A stretch of 58,382 nucleotides of DNA, taken from positions 1 to 58,382 of the forward strand of contig CAJJCP010000002.1 in assembly GCA_905182715.1 (NCBI GenBank), read 5' to 3'. Within the stretch, counting starts at the first letter, position 1; every line of letters begins with the position of its first letter. Below the pieces are notes generated by a model. That model made no database searches. It worked only from the letters and a program-made list of their open reading frames with translations, and had not been told where the DNA came from. Made by a program: the position numbers and the translations under genes. Shown here one piece after another: positions 25,050-36,982 of the stretch. This DNA comes from an uncultured Candidatus Poseidoniales archaeon (GTDB lineage Archaea; Thermoplasmatota; Poseidoniia; Poseidoniales; Poseidoniaceae).

Positions 25050-26014
25050 TCAACGGTATGAATTGGTAAGTGCAACGAGTTCTCTGGCAATGCTCACTTC
25101 GCCCATAGAATGCCCAGCATCAGGCACGAGGATAAGGATGCTGTTCGGCATTGATTTGTGTAATTCCCAAGCACTACGTGCTGGGCAGACAACATCGTAA
25201 CGGCCTTGAACAATTGTCGTTGGTATGTGCTGAATTGTGTCAACATGGTTGAGGATATGAGCCTCTTCAAGGAAAATAGCATTGATGAAATAGTGACATT
25301 CGATACGCGCAAACGCAACTGCAAAATCAAGATCTTCTGCTTTTTCAAGATACGAATCGTCTGGGAAAAGCCGGCTTGTGGCCATTTCCCATCGCGTCCA
25401 TTCCTTTGCAGCAGCACGACGGATGTATTCACATCGTCACTGGTTAAGCGAAGGTGATAGGCTTTGATGAGGTCTCCCTGTTCTTGTTTTGGAATATGCT
25501 CTCTGTAGGACTCGAACGCATCTGGGAAAATATGACTTGCACCATCTTGATAGAACCATTGTAATTCACTTTTACGACACATGAAAATACCTCGAAGCAT
25601 CAAACTGAGAGCGCGTTGAGGATGCTCTTGTGCATAGACCAAAGCAAGTGTTGAACCCCATGAGCCACCAAAAACATGCCATTTTTCAATTTCAAATAAC
25701 TGGCGGAGTTGTTCGATATCACTGACCGAGGCCTGCGTATTATTTTCAATTAATTCGGCATATGGAGTTGATTTTCCGCATCCACGTTGGTCAAATTGAA
25801 TGATATTGTAGGTTTTAGGATCAAAGTATTGCCGATACGCAGGCTGTCCACCGCCACCTGGCCCACCATGAATCACAATAACTGGGATGCCGTCTGGATT
25901 TCCACTTTTCTCCCATGCAATGGTATGTATTTCCGAAACGCTCAACATACCTGAATCATACGGTTCAATTGGTGAATAAAGGACGTCCTCAAGGGTCGTA
26001 GTAACATCGAGCAT
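25050..26014 (-). CDS. pip: proline iminopeptidase, frameshift in the middle
   Basis: Alpha/beta hydrolase (peptidase family S33) removing N-terminal proline. PVIVIHGGPGGGGQPAYRQY is the HGGPG oxyanion segment, FDQRGCGKSTPYAELIENNT follows, and the nucleophile is in WHVFGGSWGSTLALVYAQEH (Ser about residue 115). A frame change near 25390 links RNGRDGKWP to MATSRLFPDDSYLEKAEDLD; the Asp and His of the triad are then in QGRYDVVCPARSAWELH and VPDAGHSMGE. About 320 residues, normal for the family. Fits a peptide-consuming heterotroph. Confidence 0.88.
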
Positions 26015-26710: not shown

Positions 26711-29700
26711 CTACTCTTCGATGGAAAGAGGGCCAAGTTCGGCCCCTTCAGGGCCACAAAGGCGTATATCCCCTCTTGAGAACGGACATTGTGAGCAGAT
26801 GTGGGCCGATTCAGCAGGCAAACGTGCAGGTTCGTTCATTACATCTGGAGTTGCAGCAAGTTGAGCCATCCAATTGAGGTGTTCAGAAAGAGTCTGCTTT
26901 GCATCCTCAAATTCTTCTACAGTTAATTGCACCATGCGCCCAGAAGCACCGATAAGCAAGGACGGGGGGAGCACACGACGGCGTTCATGTTCTGGCTTTT
27001 GTAGCTCGATGGCTTCCAATGCCAATGAATACAATGTCAGTTGCAAGCGGTGTTCGTCTAACAGTGCTCTTTCAGCATATGATGCAGGGTAAGGTGAAAG
27101 GTGATCGCCTTTGAATTTTTGAAGGGAACTGCCAGCGTTTGGGTTGTCTGGATTAAATTGGTCTCTACACCCTTTCGTTTTCAAATCAACAACTTGTAGG
27201 CATGCTTTCCCATCTGTGTCACGCAAAGCCAATACTAAATCAGCACGACCGTCAAAAACCACATCGACATGGTCGACCAGGGCTTGTTGCCGTGGTCCTT
27301 CGATAGAGAAGGTGGTACGAATTACCCCGTCAAAGGCCACCTTATGGCTAAAATAAAACGGTAATTCTGTCCTCAAACCTTCAACTGTAAAGCCGAAATG
27401 GCTTTCTCCATCGGCAAATCGACCGAGAAGGCCCTTACGAACCAATGTCCCCAGATGTGCTAACCGATCAAAGGTGGCTTGGTGCATTTTAGAATCTGAA
27501 TTCCCTTCCCCGATGCCCTCTTCTGCAAGCACCCGTTGGAGAGTTGCTTCATCATCGAGAAGATCTTTCCCTTCATAGGTCCAAGCGGAAGGAAGCGCTA
27601 ATGTTGGTGGAGAATTGAGTTGTGCAGGATTCCGCAAACCAATCTCGACCAAACGGTGCATCAGAGTCCCGAAAACAGTTGCGATTGGGAAAAGTGATGC
27701 GGTTTTTTCATCTGACTTCGATTTTGAAAATCGTGAAAGTGGTTCGGGATTCCATCCTCTTACTTCTGACAACCAATGGCGGCGGGGACAAGCAAAGCTC
27801 GTATCCAATCCATGCGCCGTCATTCGCATGATATCACTCACTTGAGTAGAACCGACAGGAAGAGGTGTTTGTGGCTTGTTTTTACCGAGTTCCGCCTCGA
27901 GACTACGCCATTTTTGTAATGGTGTTTGGACATCTAAGTTGGGGAAACAATCCGGTGAATGATAAATGTGAATTGATTCAATTGCATCGCCACCGAGGCA
28001 CGAATTCTCGACTAATGCCCTCGGGTTTAACGAAAGGGTCGTTTTCTCATAACGCCGAAGTGGTTGGTCGAACGCATCATTTGATAGAAGCCACGGTGAA
28101 TCCTGTTGCTCGTTTGAGTGGGAAAGACTGCGTAAACCATCGAGCCACATCGCACCCATAGTTTTCATCGATGGTTTGCTCTTAAATTCAAGGCGATGGG
28201 TCTCAGAGTTCACTTCGGCTGTATCACTTGGCGATCCAACGACAATCAATCGATCCTTTACTCGAGTTAATGCGACATAAAACTCTCGACGGCGTTCGGC
28301 TTGGCGTTGAGCATGGTCTATACGTTTTGCAAACTCCCAAAGTCCATCATCGGGTCGTTCGCGAGAAGTCCATGGATTGATTCGGCCTGCGACAACTTGA
28401 GGCGTGACTAATACGTTATTTCGGACGGCGAGCGATGCATCGGATTTGCCTGCATGGAAGATTCCTGCAACAACGACGACCGGCGCTTGAAGTCCTTTAG
28501 CGCCGTGGATGGTCATGATTTGAATCGCACCACCAGATGGCGTTGTAATCGCTGAAGGGCCTTTGTTTCCAAGGCCACTCAAGGCTTTCATTCGATTGAA
28601 AATAGCCGATGCTTCATGACCTAATTCATTTCCAATAGAGGCTGCAAGAACACACCACGCTTCTGCATTTTGTCGAGAAGTATCATCTGGGTAGGCGACA
28701 AGTAAATCTGAATGGTCAAGTACAGTATCGAATACATCATGAATCGCCCCTTGTTGAACCAAGCGCTCTACGTGTTCGACAAATCGCTTCACAGACTTAT
28801 TTGGAGCATGTTGTTGAAGTTTATTCCACCATGAATGCTCCTCCTGGCAGGTAAGTAATGCATGGGCTTGGGCATCATTAAAACCCAGTATTGGAGAGCG
28901 GGCAAGCGATAAAGCAGCGTGTCGGGAGTTCGGGAAAGCAATCAATTCCAAGCAAGCGAGGAGTGGCGCAACCACAGGCCGTTGAAGCAATGCACCTTGA
29001 CGATCTGCCATGACCGGGATGCCTCGAGATTGCAGTCTCTGAATCAAATCCGGCATGTGTTTTCTGGAGTGAACTAAAATGATGATATCTTCGGGTCGAA
29101 CATTTGAGGAATCGTTTGGAAGTTCAGCATAGGTGCCTGAATCTGAATCCCACACTTGTGTTGCTCTTTTTTGGATAAGAGCTTGTAAACGGGCAGCTAT
29201 TAATTCATTTTCAAGATGCGAGCGTTTTGCTTTCGGGTCAGCAAAGGTATCAATTCGCTTTTCCAAATCAAAACTCGGAGGTTCAACTCCGACTTGTAGA
29301 GGGACGAGCCATTCCAGTGTACCCGAATTCTCAGAGTTACGGGCTGGTCGGAGTTGTTGTGGTTCTGCATGCCAATCCCCTGGTAAGACGTAGTGCCGTG
29401 GGTCGAATACATCGTCAAACATCCCATTCATCGTTCGCATTAAATTATGCAGTGAACGGTGATTTGAGGTAAGGTCAATATGCCCGAGTATACGTCGCTC
29501 TCTACGGACATCATCAACTGGATGACGGACATCCTCGTCGTCTTCAAAAGCGACACTCACATGCTCCCATAGTTTAGATTTCACAGATGCACCTTCAATG
29601 CTCGAACCTTTGATGAATGATTCACCAGCGCCAACAGGTCGAGGGTCTCGGCCCTCTCCTTCACTTCGTAAGTGACTCAACCGAGGTTCGCCTTGTTCCA

Positions 29701-31663
29701 AAAGATTGGCTTGTTTAATCGCAGCGACCGTTCGTCGCATGACTGTAACCTCTGCTTGACGGAACCGATAGATGCTTTGCTTCATATCCCCGACAATACA
29801 AACCGTTGGATCCCAAGGCCCAAGCGGGCGTATCGGGTCATCAGATTCGAGTCTACGATGCCCCCAGAGTCGGGCGAGAAGACGGAAATGAGCAGGGTTC
29901 GTATCTTGATATTCATCAATGATGAAAGCACGATATTGCCGTCGAATTGTTTGAAGTGTGAAGAAACGGCGTTGTAAATCTTCGAAACAAGATTGGTCTT
30001 GTCCTGCAAGACGCATCGCTCGTGAAATATGCTGGTCCGACCAAGGTTCATCTCCCAGATGGTCTAAGGCTTCAACGACTGGTGAAGGATAGACGTGGCG
30101 GACGATATCTGGGCATCGAGCGAGCAATAAGTCTGCAACGAGTTTTTGGATATCATCATAATCATGTACGCCTTCATGGGCTTTTTGAAGCGTCAAAATA
30201 TCTTGACAGCCACGGTGAACAAGTAACAAGTCGTTCAGAACATTGGTTTGTAATTCGTGGGAAATACGTAGACGCCCTTCGGGAGCGAGGTCACTGAATG
30301 TCGTCTCGACCTCTTGATGGCGAAGTTCACAATCTGCGGGCATATGTGGTAATTGTGAAATCGGATCGAGTAAGAACGCACTTTTTCCTAAGAGGCAAAC
30401 TAAACGCCCGAGGCGACTGTTGAGTTCTGCGTTGAGGTTTGATGCGAGTCGTAATGCCTCCATTTCCACGGCATCTTTGTCGGTTTTCGAAACGACTTTC
30501 GTGGCAGTTTTACCGAGCAAACCGGGGTGCCATCCAGCACAATAACGGGCTTGGGGCAGTCCACCCTTTGGGAAATAGTTCGGTTCATCCTCTTCTAATT
30601 GGTTCGTGGTCGTACCGGCAAAAGCGACTTGCCAAACCCATTGTAAACAGGCACTTGGCTCAATTGGTAGGGGCTCCCGGACCAAAGCGGTCAAGTGATT
30701 AAAACGGGTGAGAGTTGAATTGATTGCAGTTTCACAAGCCAAAACATAGTGAGTTGAATGAGCAAGATATGCATCAACCCACTGTGACAGAATATGTTGA
30801 AGGCCTTGAGCAAAACCGACGACTTCTTCACGTACTGGTTCCAAAAACATGTCCATTAGTACTTCATGGGGTAATGGGCCCACTCCTGACCAAGTTGAGC
30901 CAAGCAGTTGAGCACGGGCAAGCATTGCCCGATATGCTTCTTCAACAAACAACGATTTCCCCAGCATCCCACTAAGGACAACTGCTGAGTGCTCTTGGCC
31001 GCCGAGAAGCACTGCTAAACGGTCACGTGCTTCAATAAACGCCCCAATATTTCCGCGCACACCGGCCTCATGCGCGTCATTAATTGTACGGATTCGCCAT
31101 GCAGAATGGAGCGTTTCTTGAACGAGAAGCGGAGATCTGTCCTCGGAGATCTGTTCACGACTTGGATGAACTGCAACTAAATCCAAATGTGGAGATACCA
31201 ATTGAGAAAGGAACGCGTCAATCGTTGAGATTGGCGCTTCGTCGAGAGCGGACATCAGAGTCTCAATATCTCCTTCTCGTAGTCGAGGGTCGAATATTCC
31301 TTCATCGTCACCTGTTTTTATTGGTGAAGCTCGACTTTGCCCAACACGATATCGGATACGTGCTTTCAATTCTGCTGCTGCTTTTTTGGTAAAAGTGATG
31401 GCGACGACTTCGCTGGGCAGCAAGCCTTTCCAATCATTTGGTGAAGTTCGTTGACGAGGGGGGGCTCGTAAAAAACCGCTACTCTTGGCTGATTCGCGAG
31501 GACCGTGTGGAAGAAGTTGAGTTGCGCGTTGTTCTGATGAGAGAAGATGTTGAACATAACGTTCAGCCATGACCGTTGTTTTGCCAGTTCCTGCTCCTGC
31601 ATCCAAAGCAATGTGTTTGTCAAGGTCGAGACCGAGGCGTTGACTTCGATTAAAACGAATCAT
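26711..31663 (-). CDS. addA: AddA-like UvrD-family helicase with C-terminal PD-(D/E)XK nuclease and cysteine cluster
   Basis: SF1A helicase of 1650 residues. Walker A ALDAGAGTGKTTVMAERY (about 20-37), motif Ia VVAITFTKKAAAELKARI, motif II FIIDEYQDTNPAHF (about 584), motif III GDMKQSIYRFRQAEV (627), motif V IQIMTIHGAKGLQAP (1051) and motif VI EFYVALTRVKDRLIVVG (1129) are all intact. The nuclease has GRADLVLALRD and VVDLKTKG (about 1494). Unlike bacterial AddA, the nuclease is framed by cysteines: FACPRRHW (about 1291) and ICSQCPFSRGDIRLC (about 1624), the Fe-S arrangement of AddB and Cas4. Expected role: resection of double-strand breaks. Start overlaps the addB-like stop by four bases. Confidence 0.85.
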   Translation of the reverse strand: MIRFNRSQRLGLDLDKHIALDAGAGTGKTTVMAERYVQHLLSSEQRATQLLPHGPRESAKSSGFLRAPPRQRTSPNDWKGLLPSEVVAITFTKKAAAELKARIRYRVGQSRASPIKTGDDEGIFDPRLREGDIETLMSALDEAPISTIDAFLSQLVSPHLDLVAVHPSREQISEDRSPLLVQETLHSAWRIRTINDAHEAGVRGNIGAFIEARDRLAVLLGGQEHSAVVLSGMLGKSLFVEEAYRAMLARAQLLGSTWSGVGPLPHEVLMDMFLEPVREEVVGFAQGLQHILSQWVDAYLAHSTHYVLACETAINSTLTRFNHLTALVREPLPIEPSACLQWVWQVAFAGTTTNQLEEDEPNYFPKGGLPQARYCAGWHPGLLGKTATKVVSKTDKDAVEMEALRLASNLNAELNSRLGRLVCLLGKSAFLLDPISQLPHMPADCELRHQEVETTFSDLAPEGRLRISHELQTNVLNDLLLVHRGCQDILTLQKAHEGVHDYDDIQKLVADLLLARCPDIVRHVYPSPVVEALDHLGDEPWSDQHISRAMRLAGQDQSCFEDLQRRFFTLQTIRRQYRAFIIDEYQDTNPAHFRLLARLWGHRRLESDDPIRPLGPWDPTVCIVGDMKQSIYRFRQAEVTVMRRTVAAIKQANLLEQGEPRLSHLRSEGEGRDPRPVGAGESFIKGSSIEGASVKSKLWEHVSVAFEDDEDVRHPVDDVRRERRILGHIDLTSNHRSLHNLMRTMNGMFDDVFDPRHYVLPGDWHAEPQQLRPARNSENSGTLEWLVPLQVGVEPPSFDLEKRIDTFADPKAKRSHLENELIAARLQALIQKRATQVWDSDSGTYAELPNDSSNVRPEDIIILVHSRKHMPDLIQRLQSRGIPVMADRQGALLQRPVVAPLLACLELIAFPNSRHAALSLARSPILGFNDAQAHALLTCQEEHSWWNKLQQHAPNKSVKRFVEHVERLVQQGAIHDVFDTVLDHSDLLVAYPDDTSRQNAEAWCVLAASIGNELGHEASAIFNRMKALSGLGNKGPSAITTPSGGAIQIMTIHGAKGLQAPVVVVAGIFHAGKSDASLAVRNNVLVTPQVVAGRINPWTSRERPDDGLWEFAKRIDHAQRQAERRREFYVALTRVKDRLIVVGSPSDTAEVNSETHRLEFKSKPSMKTMGAMWLDGLRSLSHSNEQQDSPWLLSNDAFDQPLRRYEKTTLSLNPRALVENSCLGGDAIESIHIYHSPDCFPNLDVQTPLQKWRSLEAELGKNKPQTPLPVGSTQVSDIMRMTAHGLDTSFACPRRHWLSEVRGWNPEPLSRFSKSKSDEKTASLFPIATVFGTLMHRLVEIGLRNPAQLNSPPTLALPSAWTYEGKDLLDDEATLQRVLAEEGIGEGNSDSKMHQATFDRLAHLGTLVRKGLLGRFADGESHFGFTVEGLRTELPFYFSHKVAFDGVIRTTFSIEGPRQQALVDHVDVVFDGRADLVLALRDTDGKACLQVVDLKTKGCRDQFNPDNPNAGSSLQKFKGDHLSPYPASYAERALLDEHRLQLTLYSLALEAIELQKPEHERRRVLPPSLLIGASGRMVQLTVEEFEDAKQTLSEHLNWMAQLAATPDVMNEPARLPAESAHICSQCPFSRGDIRLCGPEGAELGPLSIEE

Positions 31664-34600
31664 TGCTCGTCACCTCCTAGAGACGCTGATGGGCAAATTT
31701 GCCGCACTGTACAATAGGAGCAATGAGCACCAGGAGTTGCATTGACGTGACCTTGGCGTGCTGTTTGAATCGCTCTACCGGCTGTCCGGATACGTTCAGA
31801 AATCCAAGCTCGGAAACCGTTTTGAGATGGATATTCACTTCCTGGTTTGCGATGGTGTGTTTGGGCATATGATGTTCGCTCTCCAAGTTCACTTTCACCG
31901 ACATATTGGAGAATGGAGGCATCGAGTTCTACATAATGCGTGGTTGATTCGCCAATTTCAGTCACCCCAATACCGACGACACGGTCCCCTGGGTGGCTCT
32001 GTTCCCAAGCCCGCGCATAAAGTCCAAGTTGAACTTCATCAAACATACCTTTACGGTGGCGGTTGCCTTTGTTTTTTGGTTTCGGTCCATTCACTGTTTT
32101 CAAATCACGAATGATGACGAAACGGTTGACGGGGTGTGGCTCTCTCAATTCAAGAGGGAGTATCGTTGAAATCGGAGTATTGGAAAGTACGCCATCAGCG
32201 ATTGCTTGTTCATGTTGTTGTTTGCTAAGTACAAGAGCATCAACTCGGTCGATTCGTCCGGATAAATTGATTTGAATTGGTTTTCCTTCGTCATCGAAAC
32301 CATCTATTTTCACATGCCCGGACTTTCCTTCATTCAACATCCATTCACAGGCTAGAGGGGCCGAAGAGGTCAAATCAAGATCTGCCGAAATCATCCGCCC
32401 TAAACGGCCACTGGGTTCTATTTCAATCTCTCCCTCAAGGTGCATTCGCCACTGATTCGGAGTGACTCCAAGCATTTCTCTACAGCGATGGACGGCCACT
32501 GCATCATTTCGTGCTAACCAAGGAACTTCGTTTTCAAGATACGAGAGTACACTGCTCCAGAGTTCTGGAACTGTTTTCATTGGACCTTGATGCAGGGGGA
32601 GGGGGTGTTCAACGGCTTCAGCTGCTGTGATTACACCATGGGCGTTGAGCATGGCTGCTTCTGCATCGTGAATCATGGTGCCCCGGGCACGGGCATCGAC
32701 ATCTTCACTTTGTACATCTTCAGGTTCTGCTTTCAATCGTTTATTCATCCATGCCATCCGTGGGCATTTAAGCCAAGATTGAAGACGGCTTTGCGACCAA
32801 GCATCCCGTTTCATACCTGTTGATTCGAAACCAATTGTGGCATTCAAAACTGAACTTTGGAAATTAAGGGCGGGGAGAGGGCGGGGGTCAATGGCTGGCC
32901 CTTTGGAATTAGCATTTCGTTTGAGGCCAAGGTGTGGCCAATGTGGTTGTAGACTCGATCCGACTTTTATTTGAGAACTTGATGGTTGTAATACAAGTCC
33001 ATCAACACTTAGCAGGTGTTCTCGATTCTCCCAAGTGAAATATTCCCCGTTTGCTAAGTCTTTCATCACGGGTTGTCGTAGGCTACGGTCCATTTGGATG
33101 GGGAGTTCGTGCGCCATTGCCAAGGCGGTTTGAGAGAGGACTGCGCCAACAGGATCGCTGCCATCAAGCAATTCGAGTCCGAGTCGTTGACGGATGTCTC
33201 TGCCGCGATGTCCGGCGCGTTCGGCAATTGCCTTTCCTTCAATCATAGTCATGGTAAATGGACGCGGCGTGAGCCAAACAAGGCCACCACCATGTTCGTC
33301 CTTTGTCCAGTGCCAACTCCTATGAAGTCGACCTGCTTGATGTTCAGATTCTTGAACAAAGGAGGGCGCTGGTTGGAAAGTTGCGAGTGAACCCTCATGC
33401 CGTGTTTCCGTCAACCATTCAGATAACGGAGCACTAGGTCCGCCACCTTCTTCAGCACTTGTATCAAAGAAAACCACTTCTTGTGCAGCATTAAGCAGAT
33501 GGCGGAGATGGTGACGACCTTGACGAATGGCAAGATCGGAATTGAATAATCCAAGATGGATTTGAGCGGGTGCATCAAGCCATGGTACCTTTGGAGTCTT
33601 CATCGACCATGAATTAACATCTAATCCTACTAAGAGAATCAAATCTGCTTCAACACCTTGGGCTTGTTCGGGAGTAAGAACTTGAATCGCCTTTCCACGA
33701 GATCGAGAACGGGGTAAGGAGGTATGTGCAAGGAGATGGTCGAAATATTCAACGAACTGCGATCCATCTTCTGGAACTGAATAGCCCGCCTTATCAAGCA
33801 ATTTTCGCGTCGATTCGTGAGACTCTCTTACCAGTTGTAATCCGGCGAGTGAACGGTCGTGTTTTGCTGTCCGATTGGAGAGTTCAATCCAATCGATTCG
33901 ACCGTAAATCGTATCGAGCCATTCAACCCCTGACTTCGGTCGTGGGGGGAGAGGAAGAGGTTGTTCTGTTGAACAACCTAGAGGGCGCTTATCAATTTTA
34001 GAAAGGGTTTCTTGGTCTACCAGCGGCGCCCATGTTTCTGCAACACAATGTAACCACCACTGTGTTTCTTCAAGAGCTTGTCGCGCTTTGTTTTTGTTTT
34101 CCCCAAGTTGAGGAGTTGCTTGGGCTAATGTACCAAGCCATCTCAAAAGTGAACCTTGCCCCCCTCGAACGTGAAAAGAACGGGCGATTTTTTCAAGAAT
34201 ATCGGAATGAGGGCGAGGGGTCCATGATGGTTCGCTTGGGTGACTGAGGCTCTCAATTGCACCGTTGATGAGAGGGAGGCTTTGATGCTCATACAATCCC
34301 CGAAGATGTTCGAGTGACCACGCGTCCATGCCGATTCCAAGCTTCATGGCTCGGGCTAGACCAGCAACTGCAGATATTTCTCCGAGTGCTTTCTGCTCGA
34401 TACCACATTGGTATCCGAGGGAGTCAAGACGAGAATGCCATTGACTCTGATTGGAATCTGCAGCGCCGTCGATGATGAGGACACGCCCGCTGGAATTGAG
34501 CCCATATGAGTGTAACAATTCGATAGCAGCATCCATAGAATGCGCTCTTCGCTCGAGAGTAATACGATGAAGTGAAGTGTTTCTCTCATCACCTCGTTTT

Positions 34601-35418
34601 GAACGCCAATGGACCTCGGCTGGCGGCGTCCAAACTTCGTGTTCTGGAACCCAAGTAGGAAGGGTCGTCTGCGTCACATAGTCCCATTCAGCATCGAAAA
34701 GGTAGGCACCATGATATCCAAGGCGGAAAGAACCTGCAGCACAAAGTTGGTGAAGAGGGCGTACTTTGGAAAGTACGTTGAAAAAACTACGTTCGATTTC
34801 CGAGTAATCAGGTGCTGTATCCAAGACTACAATCCCGCTCACATCACTCAGCGTAAATGGAACTTCAGAACTTGTTTCAAGGGCTATCATGAGGCGACTG
34901 AATGCGTGATGCGGGTGAGTGCCGCCTAATTTCTTTTCAAGAGTACGGAGAAGCGAGTCAAATTCTTTAGCACCAGGGTCACCCTCCCATGACCAAGGAT
35001 TGTTGAGTTGATGCAGCGTTCGATGCAGGGCAAGAATACGTTCGGTTTGGTAGGGTGACCACTTCCTCCCCTCAATGGCTGAAAACAACAGAGGCAATTC
35101 CCCATTTTCAGCAGCCTGTTTGGTATGGGCATGGATCACAGAAAACAACCCTGCATCATTTCCAAATAATGGCGGTAAACCAAGATCGAGCGTCAATAAT
35201 TGAAGTAAACGTATAACGGTCAAATGGTGAGTCGTATCTACAGGCGAATTGCTATCAGCAAGTTTGAGCAGGGTTTGATTCCGACTTGCTTCATTTGGAT
35301 GAAGAACCAGGAGGTTTTCAGCAGTACCGTTCTCAAGAGCGGAAAAGAACCAAGAGGGAATATTATCGCCAGTTTCAATCGCTTCGAGCGTAAGTGATGC
35401 AACGTTTCCCTCCTTCAT
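31660..35418 (-). CDS. addB: AddB-like inactivated helicase with PD-(D/E)XK nuclease and Fe-S cysteines
   Basis: Protein of 1252 residues. The N-terminal two thirds have the size and weak helicase fold pattern of AddB/RexB (VLTPEQAQGVEADLILLVGL resembles motif V), but no Walker A loop is visible near the N-terminus, so ATP hydrolysis is unlikely. The nuclease begins SRLQSWLKCPRMAWMNKRLK (Cys about 883), with RARGTMIHDAEAAML, INLSGRIDRVDALV, FVIIRDLKTVNG (about 1105) and VQLGLYARAWEQ; it ends in HCSYCTVRQICPSA (C-x2-C-x5-C, about 1234). One upstream plus three downstream cysteines is the AddB/Cas4 4Fe-4S signature. Translationally coupled to the addA-like gene. Confidence 0.8.
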   Translation of the reverse strand: MKEGNVASLTLEAIETGDNIPSWFFSALENGTAENLLVLHPNEASRNQTLLKLADSNSPVDTTHHLTVIRLLQLLTLDLGLPPLFGNDAGLFSVIHAHTKQAAENGELPLLFSAIEGRKWSPYQTERILALHRTLHQLNNPWSWEGDPGAKEFDSLLRTLEKKLGGTHPHHAFSRLMIALETSSEVPFTLSDVSGIVVLDTAPDYSEIERSFFNVLSKVRPLHQLCAAGSFRLGYHGAYLFDAEWDYVTQTTLPTWVPEHEVWTPPAEVHWRSKRGDERNTSLHRITLERRAHSMDAAIELLHSYGLNSSGRVLIIDGAADSNQSQWHSRLDSLGYQCGIEQKALGEISAVAGLARAMKLGIGMDAWSLEHLRGLYEHQSLPLINGAIESLSHPSEPSWTPRPHSDILEKIARSFHVRGGQGSLLRWLGTLAQATPQLGENKNKARQALEETQWWLHCVAETWAPLVDQETLSKIDKRPLGCSTEQPLPLPPRPKSGVEWLDTIYGRIDWIELSNRTAKHDRSLAGLQLVRESHESTRKLLDKAGYSVPEDGSQFVEYFDHLLAHTSLPRSRSRGKAIQVLTPEQAQGVEADLILLVGLDVNSWSMKTPKVPWLDAPAQIHLGLFNSDLAIRQGRHHLRHLLNAAQEVVFFDTSAEEGGGPSAPLSEWLTETRHEGSLATFQPAPSFVQESEHQAGRLHRSWHWTKDEHGGGLVWLTPRPFTMTMIEGKAIAERAGHRGRDIRQRLGLELLDGSDPVGAVLSQTALAMAHELPIQMDRSLRQPVMKDLANGEYFTWENREHLLSVDGLVLQPSSSQIKVGSSLQPHWPHLGLKRNANSKGPAIDPRPLPALNFQSSVLNATIGFESTGMKRDAWSQSRLQSWLKCPRMAWMNKRLKAEPEDVQSEDVDARARGTMIHDAEAAMLNAHGVITAAEAVEHPLPLHQGPMKTVPELWSSVLSYLENEVPWLARNDAVAVHRCREMLGVTPNQWRMHLEGEIEIEPSGRLGRMISADLDLTSSAPLACEWMLNEGKSGHVKIDGFDDEGKPIQINLSGRIDRVDALVLSKQQHEQAIADGVLSNTPISTILPLELREPHPVNRFVIIRDLKTVNGPKPKNKGNRHRKGMFDEVQLGLYARAWEQSHPGDRVVGIGVTEIGESTTHYVELDASILQYVGESELGERTSYAQTHHRKPGSEYPSQNGFRAWISERIRTAGRAIQTARQGHVNATPGAHCSYCTVRQICPSASLGGDEQ

Positions 35419-35776
35419 CTTCGTCGCCTCAACGCCACTACACTCGCCGACTGTTCTTGAAGCCTCTCGGTGATTCTACAGGAAAGAACTCCTTCCGGTT
35501 CATATACAGTTGAGTTGATTGAGAGAACGAAATACGCGCTTTGTATTACTTTTTTTATATACTGTTGAAACGAATAGTAAGTGTTGTGGCTCAACATGAA
35601 GCAATCATGTTTGGGCAAAAAGACTCATGATGACCGAAATCTTCAAATAGGATGTGATGTCTACTGGGTATGTTGGCAAGAAAAGAACGCCAGAACTGGC
35701 TTTTTGGGAGTTTTCCCGAAGCCAGGACTGCCCCGAACTTGCCCTCAACAACAAAACAAGAAAGGAGACTATTAAG
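35419..35776. other. intergenic region with divergent promoters and long tfb leader
   Basis: 358 bases separate the addB-like start (minus, 35418) from the TFB-like start (plus, 35777). A strong TATA sequence at 35554-35561 serves the plus side. Small open frames exist on both strands (plus 35581-35775, minus 35415-35618), but none has a family resemblance or codon pattern that I trust. No RNA gene is recognised. Confidence 0.6.
35554..35561 (+). promoter_or_regulatory. TATA box upstream of the TFB-like gene
   Basis: TTTATATA, an exact match to the archaeal consensus, preceded by a T/A-rich run. A start about 24 bases downstream (near 35585) would give a leader of roughly 190 bases before the ATG at 35777, unusually long for an archaeon. 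Confidence 0.6.
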
Positions 35777-36982
35777 ATGAACGATGATAAGAATATGATG
35801 AAGCAAGAACTAACACAGTGTGACGAATGTTGCAGTAAGGACCTCAAGTGCGTCCCAGAGAAGGGTGAAACATGGTGCCTAGAGTGTGGTCTTGTCCACA
35901 AGGACCAACTTATCGAAGCAAACGATAACGGAGCTGCCCTGTTTGGAGAAGGTGCACACTACCAAGCTGTTCGAAACGATAAGGACATCAACCGACGACT
36001 TGGTGGAACTGGACCGAAGATGCGTTATGATTCCCGTAGCGTGAAAGACAAGAAAAAGTACTATTTCCTCGAGAAAATCGACCGAAGCACTGTTCGTAAC
36101 CCTCACCCGTTTGCTCAACGCGTCAAAAACAACATTGAGAGTTTGTACGGGCGCCACGCTTTGCACATCCTCGATTTCCTCGTCGAGATGTCTTGCCGAC
36201 CGTTGACTGGTGAGCAAGAAGTGATTCGACAGAAGCAGGGGAAGGCAATGTCCAAGAGTTTGGGTATGCCAAAGCAATCAATTTGCCGTAAGAAGAAAGG
36301 TATCAAGGGCTCTTCTGATGAACAGAATGCTGTTATCATCGCGGCTGCTATCGTTGAGCTCGCTGGAGATTTAGGCATCATGCCCAAGTTTGACCGACGT
36401 GCAACTATGGAACAAGCAGGCATCGTTCCAAAGCAAATCATGAGTGCCCGCATCAGTATTCTTCGTCATTGGAAGGCTCGCGTTACGATGGGTTGGGCTG
36501 CAATGCCACCTCGTAAAAATGCAAACGATAAGCGAGAGGATGCGATCGTCCAGGCCTTGGAACATACTTTCGAAATGCTTGGCGACCATCATAACCAAGA
36601 AGATTACGAGCGCGTTCTGTATGAAACTGAAGCACGAATTGCTCTTCTCAAAGAGGGCACCGGTGAAGCCCTCACAATTAACATTGAAGAGCGCATGTTA
36701 GTATCCGTTTGTGCGTATGCTAGCCTCACTACATTTGGACTTCAATCCGGTGCTGCGGACCTCATTGCAGACGTGTTTGGTTTAACCAGCAGTGGTATTC
36801 GTTCTCGCTATGAGGCACTGGTCGCTAATTCTGCATCAGGTGACTTCCAAGACAACGGTGCTTTTGACATGAGTCAAACCTGTCAAGAATTGTTGAATGA
36901 GTCGCACAAGCAGAATGCTTTGATAGCCAAGTTCCGACTCGGAAGACTATGCGGAAAGCGTTCTTTCTTATCGGAATCTTAA
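35777..36982 (+). CDS. tfb: divergent transcription initiation factor B (TFB) homologue
   Basis: The N-terminus has a TFIIB-type zinc ribbon, CDEC (residues 15-18) and WCLECGLV (34-37), then a basic linker (RRLGGTGPKMRYDSRSVKDK) where TFB has its reader and linker, and a helical core of two cyclin-like repeats (ADQ-free but with VIIAAAIVELAGDLGIM and LVSVCAYASLTTFGLQSGAA). TFB binds TBP-TATA and recruits RNA polymerase. The core is poorly conserved, so it may be an alternative rather than the general factor. Start: AAAGGAG nine bases before ATG 35777; an in-frame ATG at 35657 would add 40 residues before the ribbon and lacks such a site. The end overlaps the thioredoxin gene by 34 bases. Confidence 0.75.
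   Translation: MNDDKNMMKQELTQCDECCSKDLKCVPEKGETWCLECGLVHKDQLIEANDNGAALFGEGAHYQAVRNDKDINRRLGGTGPKMRYDSRSVKDKKKYYFLEKIDRSTVRNPHPFAQRVKNNIESLYGRHALHILDFLVEMSCRPLTGEQEVIRQKQGKAMSKSLGMPKQSICRKKKGIKGSSDEQNAVIIAAAIVELAGDLGIMPKFDRRATMEQAGIVPKQIMSARISILRHWKARVTMGWAAMPPRKNANDKREDAIVQALEHTFEMLGDHHNQEDYERVLYETEARIALLKEGTGEALTINIEERMLVSVCAYASLTTFGLQSGAADLIADVFGLTSSGIRSRYEALVANSASGDFQDNGAFDMSQTCQELLNESHKQNALIAKFRLGRLCGKRSFLSES

Follow-up and report, generated by a model that had tools for sequence, protein, structure and literature searches.

AddAB of the Bacillus subtilis type is encoded by overlapping genes in the order addB-addA, has its sole motor in AddA and an inactive helicase fold in AddB, and contains a nuclease in each subunit, with four cysteines in AddB; binding of DNA ends by the B. 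subtilis enzyme is reported to need the iron-sulfur (Fe-S) cluster (PMC4176176). A gene pair of the same layout occurs in a 58,382-nucleotide stretch (the window) of contig CAJJCP010000002.1 from an uncultured Candidatus Poseidoniales archaeon, whose genome we take to belong to Marine Group II. The pair is unlike its B. subtilis-type counterpart in being very divergent, in its long AddA and in coming from an archaeal order; moreover, the nuclease of classical AddA lacks a cysteine set, whereas most Poseidoniales AddA proteins possess one. Judged from sequences and structural models, it is a divergent, putatively dual-cluster variant of AddAB. There are reasonably good grounds to believe that such an enzyme, with two predicted metal clusters, is present throughout Poseidoniales and is probably the main machine resecting double-strand breaks for RadA.

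AdnAB of mycobacteria also has one nuclease per subunit, and the model of the Poseidoniales AddA nuclease resembles AdnA. The Poseidoniales pair differs in having a cysteine set in both subunits, while in AdnAB, to our knowledge, the cluster is confined to AdnA, and in an AddB without a match to the UvrD motor. Membership in AdnAB is excluded by this lack of a UvrD match together with the presence of a Walker A pattern near the N-terminus in only one of 82 AddB homologues, and membership in RecBCD (in a comparison that did not extend to a search for RecD) by the active site of AddB, invariant in 82/82 homologues as opposed to a dead nuclease. The UvrD-Cas4 fusions described in PMC5704561 from bacteria and mesophilic archaea likewise join a UvrD-like motor to a nuclease of the Cas4-like four-cysteine family; they are, however, presented there as single proteins, often in defence contexts, with no AddB heterodimer partner. 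A stand-alone fusion of this kind is ruled out here, as the addA gene overlaps that of AddB. Dna2 and bacterial Bad, as far as described, also combine a motor and an Fe-S nuclease in one chain, and Dna2 is a fold neighbour of the AddA nuclease, but both lack an AddB partner and have another domain arrangement.

Domains and predicted folds

A preliminary description of this DNA, made from its letters alone, had AddA as a complete UvrD-like protein, AddB as ATPase-dead and the two genes as translationally coupled, and these three statements hold up. AddA matches the Pfam models UvrD-helicase (1.8e-31), UvrD_C and PDDEXK_1 (6.4e-12); the DExQD motif, like Walker A, is found in 87/87 homologues, in 57 of them as the exact DE[YF]QDT. 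AddB has no UvrD match in Pfam, and PDDEXK_1 (6.2e-17) is its sole match passing the cut-off of the model. The catalytic residues of the AddA nuclease (H, D, DxK, QxxxY) are invariant in all 87 AddA homologues. Conservation across the order rules out chance open reading frames (ORFs) for both genes. The ATGA that they share constitutes a predicted translational coupling of addB and addA; overlaps of 1 or 4 bases recur in 39 of 52 addB-addA pairs from the loci of relatives, the last Met ahead of Walker A being taken as the addA start.

The predicted folds agree with these assignments. The AlphaFold2 model of AddA residues 1186-1650 (80 rows) has a mean predicted local distance difference test score (pLDDT) of 90.2, and its nine Foldseek matches in PDB (E 1.2e-6 to 1.1e-4, with modest template modelling (TM) scores by query of 0.28-0.37) are headed by AddA (4cej_A), AdnA, Dna2, AddB and a Cas4-family protein. 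For AddB residues 53-1252 (pLDDT 85.4), B. subtilis AddB chains take all of the first five places among the PDB matches (E 3e-17 to 1.5e-15, TM 0.48-0.52); the modelled fold is that of AddB. Sequence searches of PDB gave no match for the AddA nuclease profile or for the single AddB sequence and only a weak Cas4 match for the AddB profile, and a PDB search aimed at the cysteines of AdnB returned helicase regions only. A search of viral folds produced PD-(D/E)XK, Cas4 and exonuclease matches without special bearing.

Conservation and relocation of the cysteine sets

Conservation was assessed in 87 distinct AddA and 82 distinct AddB proteins from Poseidoniales loci, leaving out ORFs cut at the C-terminus, those with low profile coverage and those identical over the last 400 residues. 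The preliminary description was right in placing cysteine sets in both subunits, with CxxCx5C in AddB; the spacing in AddA is CxxCx9C instead. It had also allowed that the AddA cysteines might not be conserved among archaeal homologues. They are conserved: C1292 together with at least three tail cysteines occurs in 71 of the 87 AddA proteins, or in 72 if L023 is counted, the tail of which contains masked residues. Given a cysteine content of 0.87% in the AddA core, at least three cysteines in the 38-residue tail have a probability of ~0.004 by composition, and of ~4e-5 jointly with the upstream cysteine.

The column of C1636 holds cysteine in only 60/87 AddA proteins because the third ligand moves. 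Thirteen tails have another spacing yet retain three cysteines: CxCx2C (6), Cx7CxxC (4), Cx5CxxC (2) and Cx6CC (1). Loss of a ligand accompanied by a gain nearby is the pattern expected of a maintained metal site, and the retention of three cysteines in these respaced tails is therefore strong evidence for a putative metal site in AddA. On an AddA tree built without the nuclease domain (FastTree, which warns of long branches; L023 counted as standard), at least six changes separate kept from lost sets, and relocation among the keepers requires another five. In a profile-profile alignment of 47 columns (E 7e-7) that does not reach the C-terminal cysteines, the CPRRHW motif of AddA (C1292) falls on CPRMAW of AddB (C885), and in both models the motif is located between the first two nuclease helices.

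Incomplete sets are of several kinds. Five of the 15 incomplete AddA proteins have none of the cysteines, five have C1292 and one tail cysteine, three have C1292 and two, and the remaining two (L035 and L036) belong to a clade in which the AddB tail cysteines have been lost. This clade comprises five related genomes (G004, G006, G023, G135 and G158), whose AddB proteins have Tyr/Ser/Tyr, Tyr/Gly/Tyr or Tyr/Asn/Tyr at the C-terminal positions and keep C885. Their AddA proteins retain all four cysteines in G023 and G158 and have lost C1292 in G004, G006 and G135; in G004 and G135 neither subunit has a full set, and the active sites are intact in the members aligned.

Related pairs outside Poseidoniales

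The statement of the preliminary description that AddAB systems are bacterial has to be given up, as other Thermoplasmatota and haloarchaeal plasmids also have AddAB-like pairs. In other Thermoplasmatota, an AddA-like gene stands beside an AddB-like gene with a cysteine-rich tail at 14 loci. The C-terminal cysteines are missing from 11 of these AddA proteins and present in three: L127 has the upstream cysteine and CxxCx9C, L130 (with AddA as two ORFs) has CxxCx5C, and the set of L140 is irregular. Apart from Poseidoniales, the CxxCx9C spacing was seen in a single further archaeal AddA, that of L127.

Plasmid-borne copies from 21 regions (L207-L227) constitute the bacterial AddA sample; L222 from Deinococcus deserti, whose AddA-like gene is split into three in the annotation, was left out, and L220 contains no AddA-AddB pair among ORFs of at least 500 aa. 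A tblastn search of plasmids with the Poseidoniales AddB gave no match. Five haloarchaeal pairs have CxxCx5C in AddB and none in AddA, with the upstream cysteine of AddB detected by pattern in one of the five, and two Thermus pairs carry the set in AddB only. Four Deinococcus and four cyanobacterial pairs have CxxCx5C in both subunits (8/8), with the upstream cysteine by pattern in 8/8 AddB and 7/8 AddA proteins. The latter resemble the Poseidoniales pair in their gene order and in the sets in both subunits; they are unlike it in the CxxCx5C tail of AddA and in their shorter proteins, and they branch separately on the AddA tree. Because of these eight pairs, a two-cluster layout cannot be a peculiarity of archaea.

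The AddA cysteines had been held to be absent from bacteria. This is true of four classical AddA proteins (Paenibacillus, Monoglobus, S. meliloti and Sphingomonas), whose last 320 residues are free of such a set, and untrue of the Deinococcus and cyanobacterial plasmid copies, where bacterial AddA does bear a set, with the CxxCx5C tail. Two Fe-S-type nucleases in one complex, presented as new, have a parallel in the same bacterial pairs, and since bacteria, too, have AddAB-like pairs with two predicted clusters, the novelty is smaller than was claimed.

A Piwi-domain gene adjoins the plasmid pair in L207 (2643-12244), a BREX-5 PglZ gene the pair in L226 (1-8774) and BREX genes the pair in L212 (1453-11683), suggesting a defence use of the AddAB-like family.

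Distribution and other break-repair genes

AddA is matched in 55 of 59 near relatives and, within a phylum sample of 292 genomes, in 79 of 81 Poseidoniales (families f1 and f2). The sample of the class comprises 145 genomes, namely 124 Poseidoniales and 21 of a third family, f3, which we take to be Marine Group III. AddB is matched in 118 of the 145, all 118 belonging to the 124 genomes of f1 and f2 and none to the 21 of f3. In a quick AddA tree of 51 rows, the 21 Poseidoniales rows form one clade (SH-like approximate likelihood ratio test support of 100) with a long stem, apart from other archaeal, haloarchaeal-plasmid and bacterial AddA proteins; a recent bacterial transfer is rejected because of this single deep clade, with the reserve that the tree is a quick one and its stem long.

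A review regards Mre11 and Rad50 as universally conserved, and HerA-NurA as the archaeal resection machinery (PMC7690668). A five-row Mre11 profile matches only 3/124 Poseidoniales (G126, G136 and G151) and 3/21 f3 genomes. The best Rad50 match in Poseidoniales reaches E = 5.5e-8, apart from G126 (2.4e-13); the Poseidoniales matches listed are mostly ORFs of ~1300 aa, and NCBIfam identifies the G000 match as SMC. Strong Rad50 matches (E < 1e-100) are present in three f3 genomes, and a fragment in G061 (3.6e-26). The Rad50 zinc-hook profile matched only 3 of 14 controls and is hence uninformative. In G126, a divergent Rad50-like gene (a 907-aa ORF) and an Mre11-like gene form a pair adjoining topoisomerase VI subunit B (L235 1135-4993). 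DUF87 (HerA) gives weak matches in 12/12 f1 and 2/9 f2 genomes, to ORFs of ~530-900 aa, and the copy in G060 (837 aa) has a distant resemblance only to the HerA/VirB4 superfamily. RadA is matched at E 0.001 in 120/124 Poseidoniales and 21/21 f3 genomes and lies above its own cut-off in 137/145 overall; since it is found so widely, incomplete genomes cannot by themselves account for the absences. The profile searches thus show that most Poseidoniales apparently lack Mre11, a convincing Rad50 and a canonical HerA, and have kept RadA.

Genus g23 of f3 (e.g., G063 and G065) has neither AddB nor Mre11 matches; many of these genomes are incomplete.

Proposed function and alternative explanations

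Because most Poseidoniales keep RadA without these other genes, the enzyme that mainly resects their DNA ends is probably AddAB. In the proposed heterodimer, AddA would supply the only motor and one nuclease; AddB, which lacks ATPase motifs, would be a scaffold of helicase shape bearing the other nuclease. Within either nuclease, the cysteine before the core and the three at the C-terminus would ligate a metal cluster, most probably [4Fe-4S], which may staple the two ends of the domain and help to seat broken DNA. As AddA unwinds the DNA from the break, both strands would be cut by the two nucleases, leaving a 3' tail for RadA.

Several results weigh against this proposal. The best NCBIfam models are AddA for AddA and AddB for AddB, with scores far from the equivalog cut-offs (166.7 of 707.65 bits and 30.5 of 486.5 bits), so that by that model the pair is divergent and not an equivalog. 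The full cysteine set is missing in 15/87 AddA and 4/82 AddB proteins; the clusters therefore appear dispensable in places and probably not strictly needed. As reported in PMC3466216, zinc can take the place of the cluster in a related nuclease. For Rad50, whose profile gives a match at E 0.001 or better in 134/145 genomes, scoring was limited to six candidates per genome. The NurA profile has low sensitivity in this phylum: it matches 0/21 Poseidoniales and 1/6 f3 genomes, and also 0/8 other Thermoplasmatota with strong HerA matches, which makes it a weak test. A HerA-like role of the DUF87 ORFs in Poseidoniales is conceivable. Finally, 18 of the 21 f3 genomes have neither an AddB nor an Mre11 match, so a lack of Mre11 alone is no sign of replacement by AddAB.

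The nature of the AddA metal is the point on which the most serious competing explanation differs. It is unlikely, though worth weighing, that the AddA cysteines bind zinc, or a metal other than that of AddB, as a structural staple, and that only AddB is an Fe-S nuclease. DUF3799, a related four-cysteine nuclease, is described as holding zinc (PMC3466216), the AddA and AddB tails differ in spacing (CxxCx9C versus CxxCx5C), and the AddA ligands shift, as structural zinc sites may. The upstream CPR motif of AddA nevertheless aligns with that of AddB, and among the nearest folds besides AddA itself, which include AdnA, Dna2, AddB and a Cas4-family protein, several bind Fe-S. Very improbable is a third possibility, that the AddA set is left over from a Cas4-like ancestor of the nuclease and is being lost without function: the repeated changes between kept and lost sets on the AddA tree agree with it, as does the additional loss of C1292 in three of the five AddA proteins of the clade without the AddB set, but most lineages keep the set, and tails retaining three cysteines at new spacings would be unexpected under drift.

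A further explanation, which we hold to be improbable, concerns the role of the pair rather than its metal, and makes it mainly a defence nuclease degrading foreign DNA instead of the main resection enzyme. It draws on the BREX and Piwi-domain neighbours of some plasmid relatives and on matches of AddA to GajB helicase models in PADLOC, which UvrD-like proteins generally give. The near-universal and apparently vertical distribution in the order speaks against it, as does a Pfam scan of neighbouring genes in the window, which matched no defence family.

More tentatively, with chances just short of even, the whole order may have given up Mre11-Rad50 and HerA-NurA for a dual-cluster AddAB feeding RadA, some lineages having shed one or both clusters while keeping the active sites. 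With an AddAB-type enzyme alongside archaeal RadA, Poseidoniales appear to be an exception on the scale of an order, and this replacement of the usual archaeal resection set is a more interesting point than the dual clusters. If true, a globally abundant archaeal order would offer a natural series in which to study the purpose of the cluster, its four-cysteine, relocated-cysteine and no-cysteine versions making the debated role of Fe-S in DNA enzymes directly testable. No report of AddAB in Poseidoniales or of an Fe-S cluster in AddA was found among the titles and abstract beginnings of the open-access PMC literature; in term searches, 'DNA repair' and 'double-strand' are absent from the main text of a Poseidoniales genome paper (PMC6461757), and 'AddAB' from two reviews (PMC7690668 and PMC8708640).

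Features of the locus and neighbouring genes

Table 1 Features of the addB-addA pair, in positions of the window
Feature	Position	Strand	Description and basis
addA	26711..31663	-	1650 aa; superfamily 1 (UvrD-like) motor and C-terminal RecB-family nuclease
addB	31660..35418	-	1252 aa; helicase-like scaffold without Walker A and C-terminal RecB-family nuclease; precedes addA
ATGA overlap	31660..31663	-	addB stop TGA / addA start ATG; sequence
AddA Walker A, GAGTGKT	31579..31600	-	Sequence; pattern in 87/87 homologues
AddA nuclease domain	26714..27820	-	PDDEXK_1 match from residue 1282 on; model
AddA upstream cysteine C1292 (FACPRRHW)	27788..27790	-	Cys in 80/87 homologues
AddA C-terminal C1623, C1626, C1636 (CxxCx9C)	26756..26797	-	Sequence and homologues
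AddB nuclease domain, ~residues 879-1252	31663..32784	-	Pfam, sequence, model
AddB upstream cysteine C885 (KCPRMAW)	32764..32766	-	Cys in 82/82 homologues
AddB C-terminal C1233, C1236, C1242 (CxxCx5C)	31693..31722	-	All three in 78/82 homologues

The neighbour of addB at 35654-36982 (+), which runs the opposite way, encodes an N-terminal zinc-ribbon-like stretch (CxxCC...CxxC) that recalls TFIIB; its product has no Pfam match at E 0.001. On the other side of the pair, an alpha/beta hydrolase gene at 25050-26014 (-) is split over two frames (25094-26014 and 25050-25385), both of which match abhydrolase Pfam models; the split is a frameshift or an assembly error. Elsewhere, DndD-like ATPases are encoded in the window's own genome (L192 2906-4948) and, in two copies, in G043 (L193 2170-4191 and L194 3062-5074).

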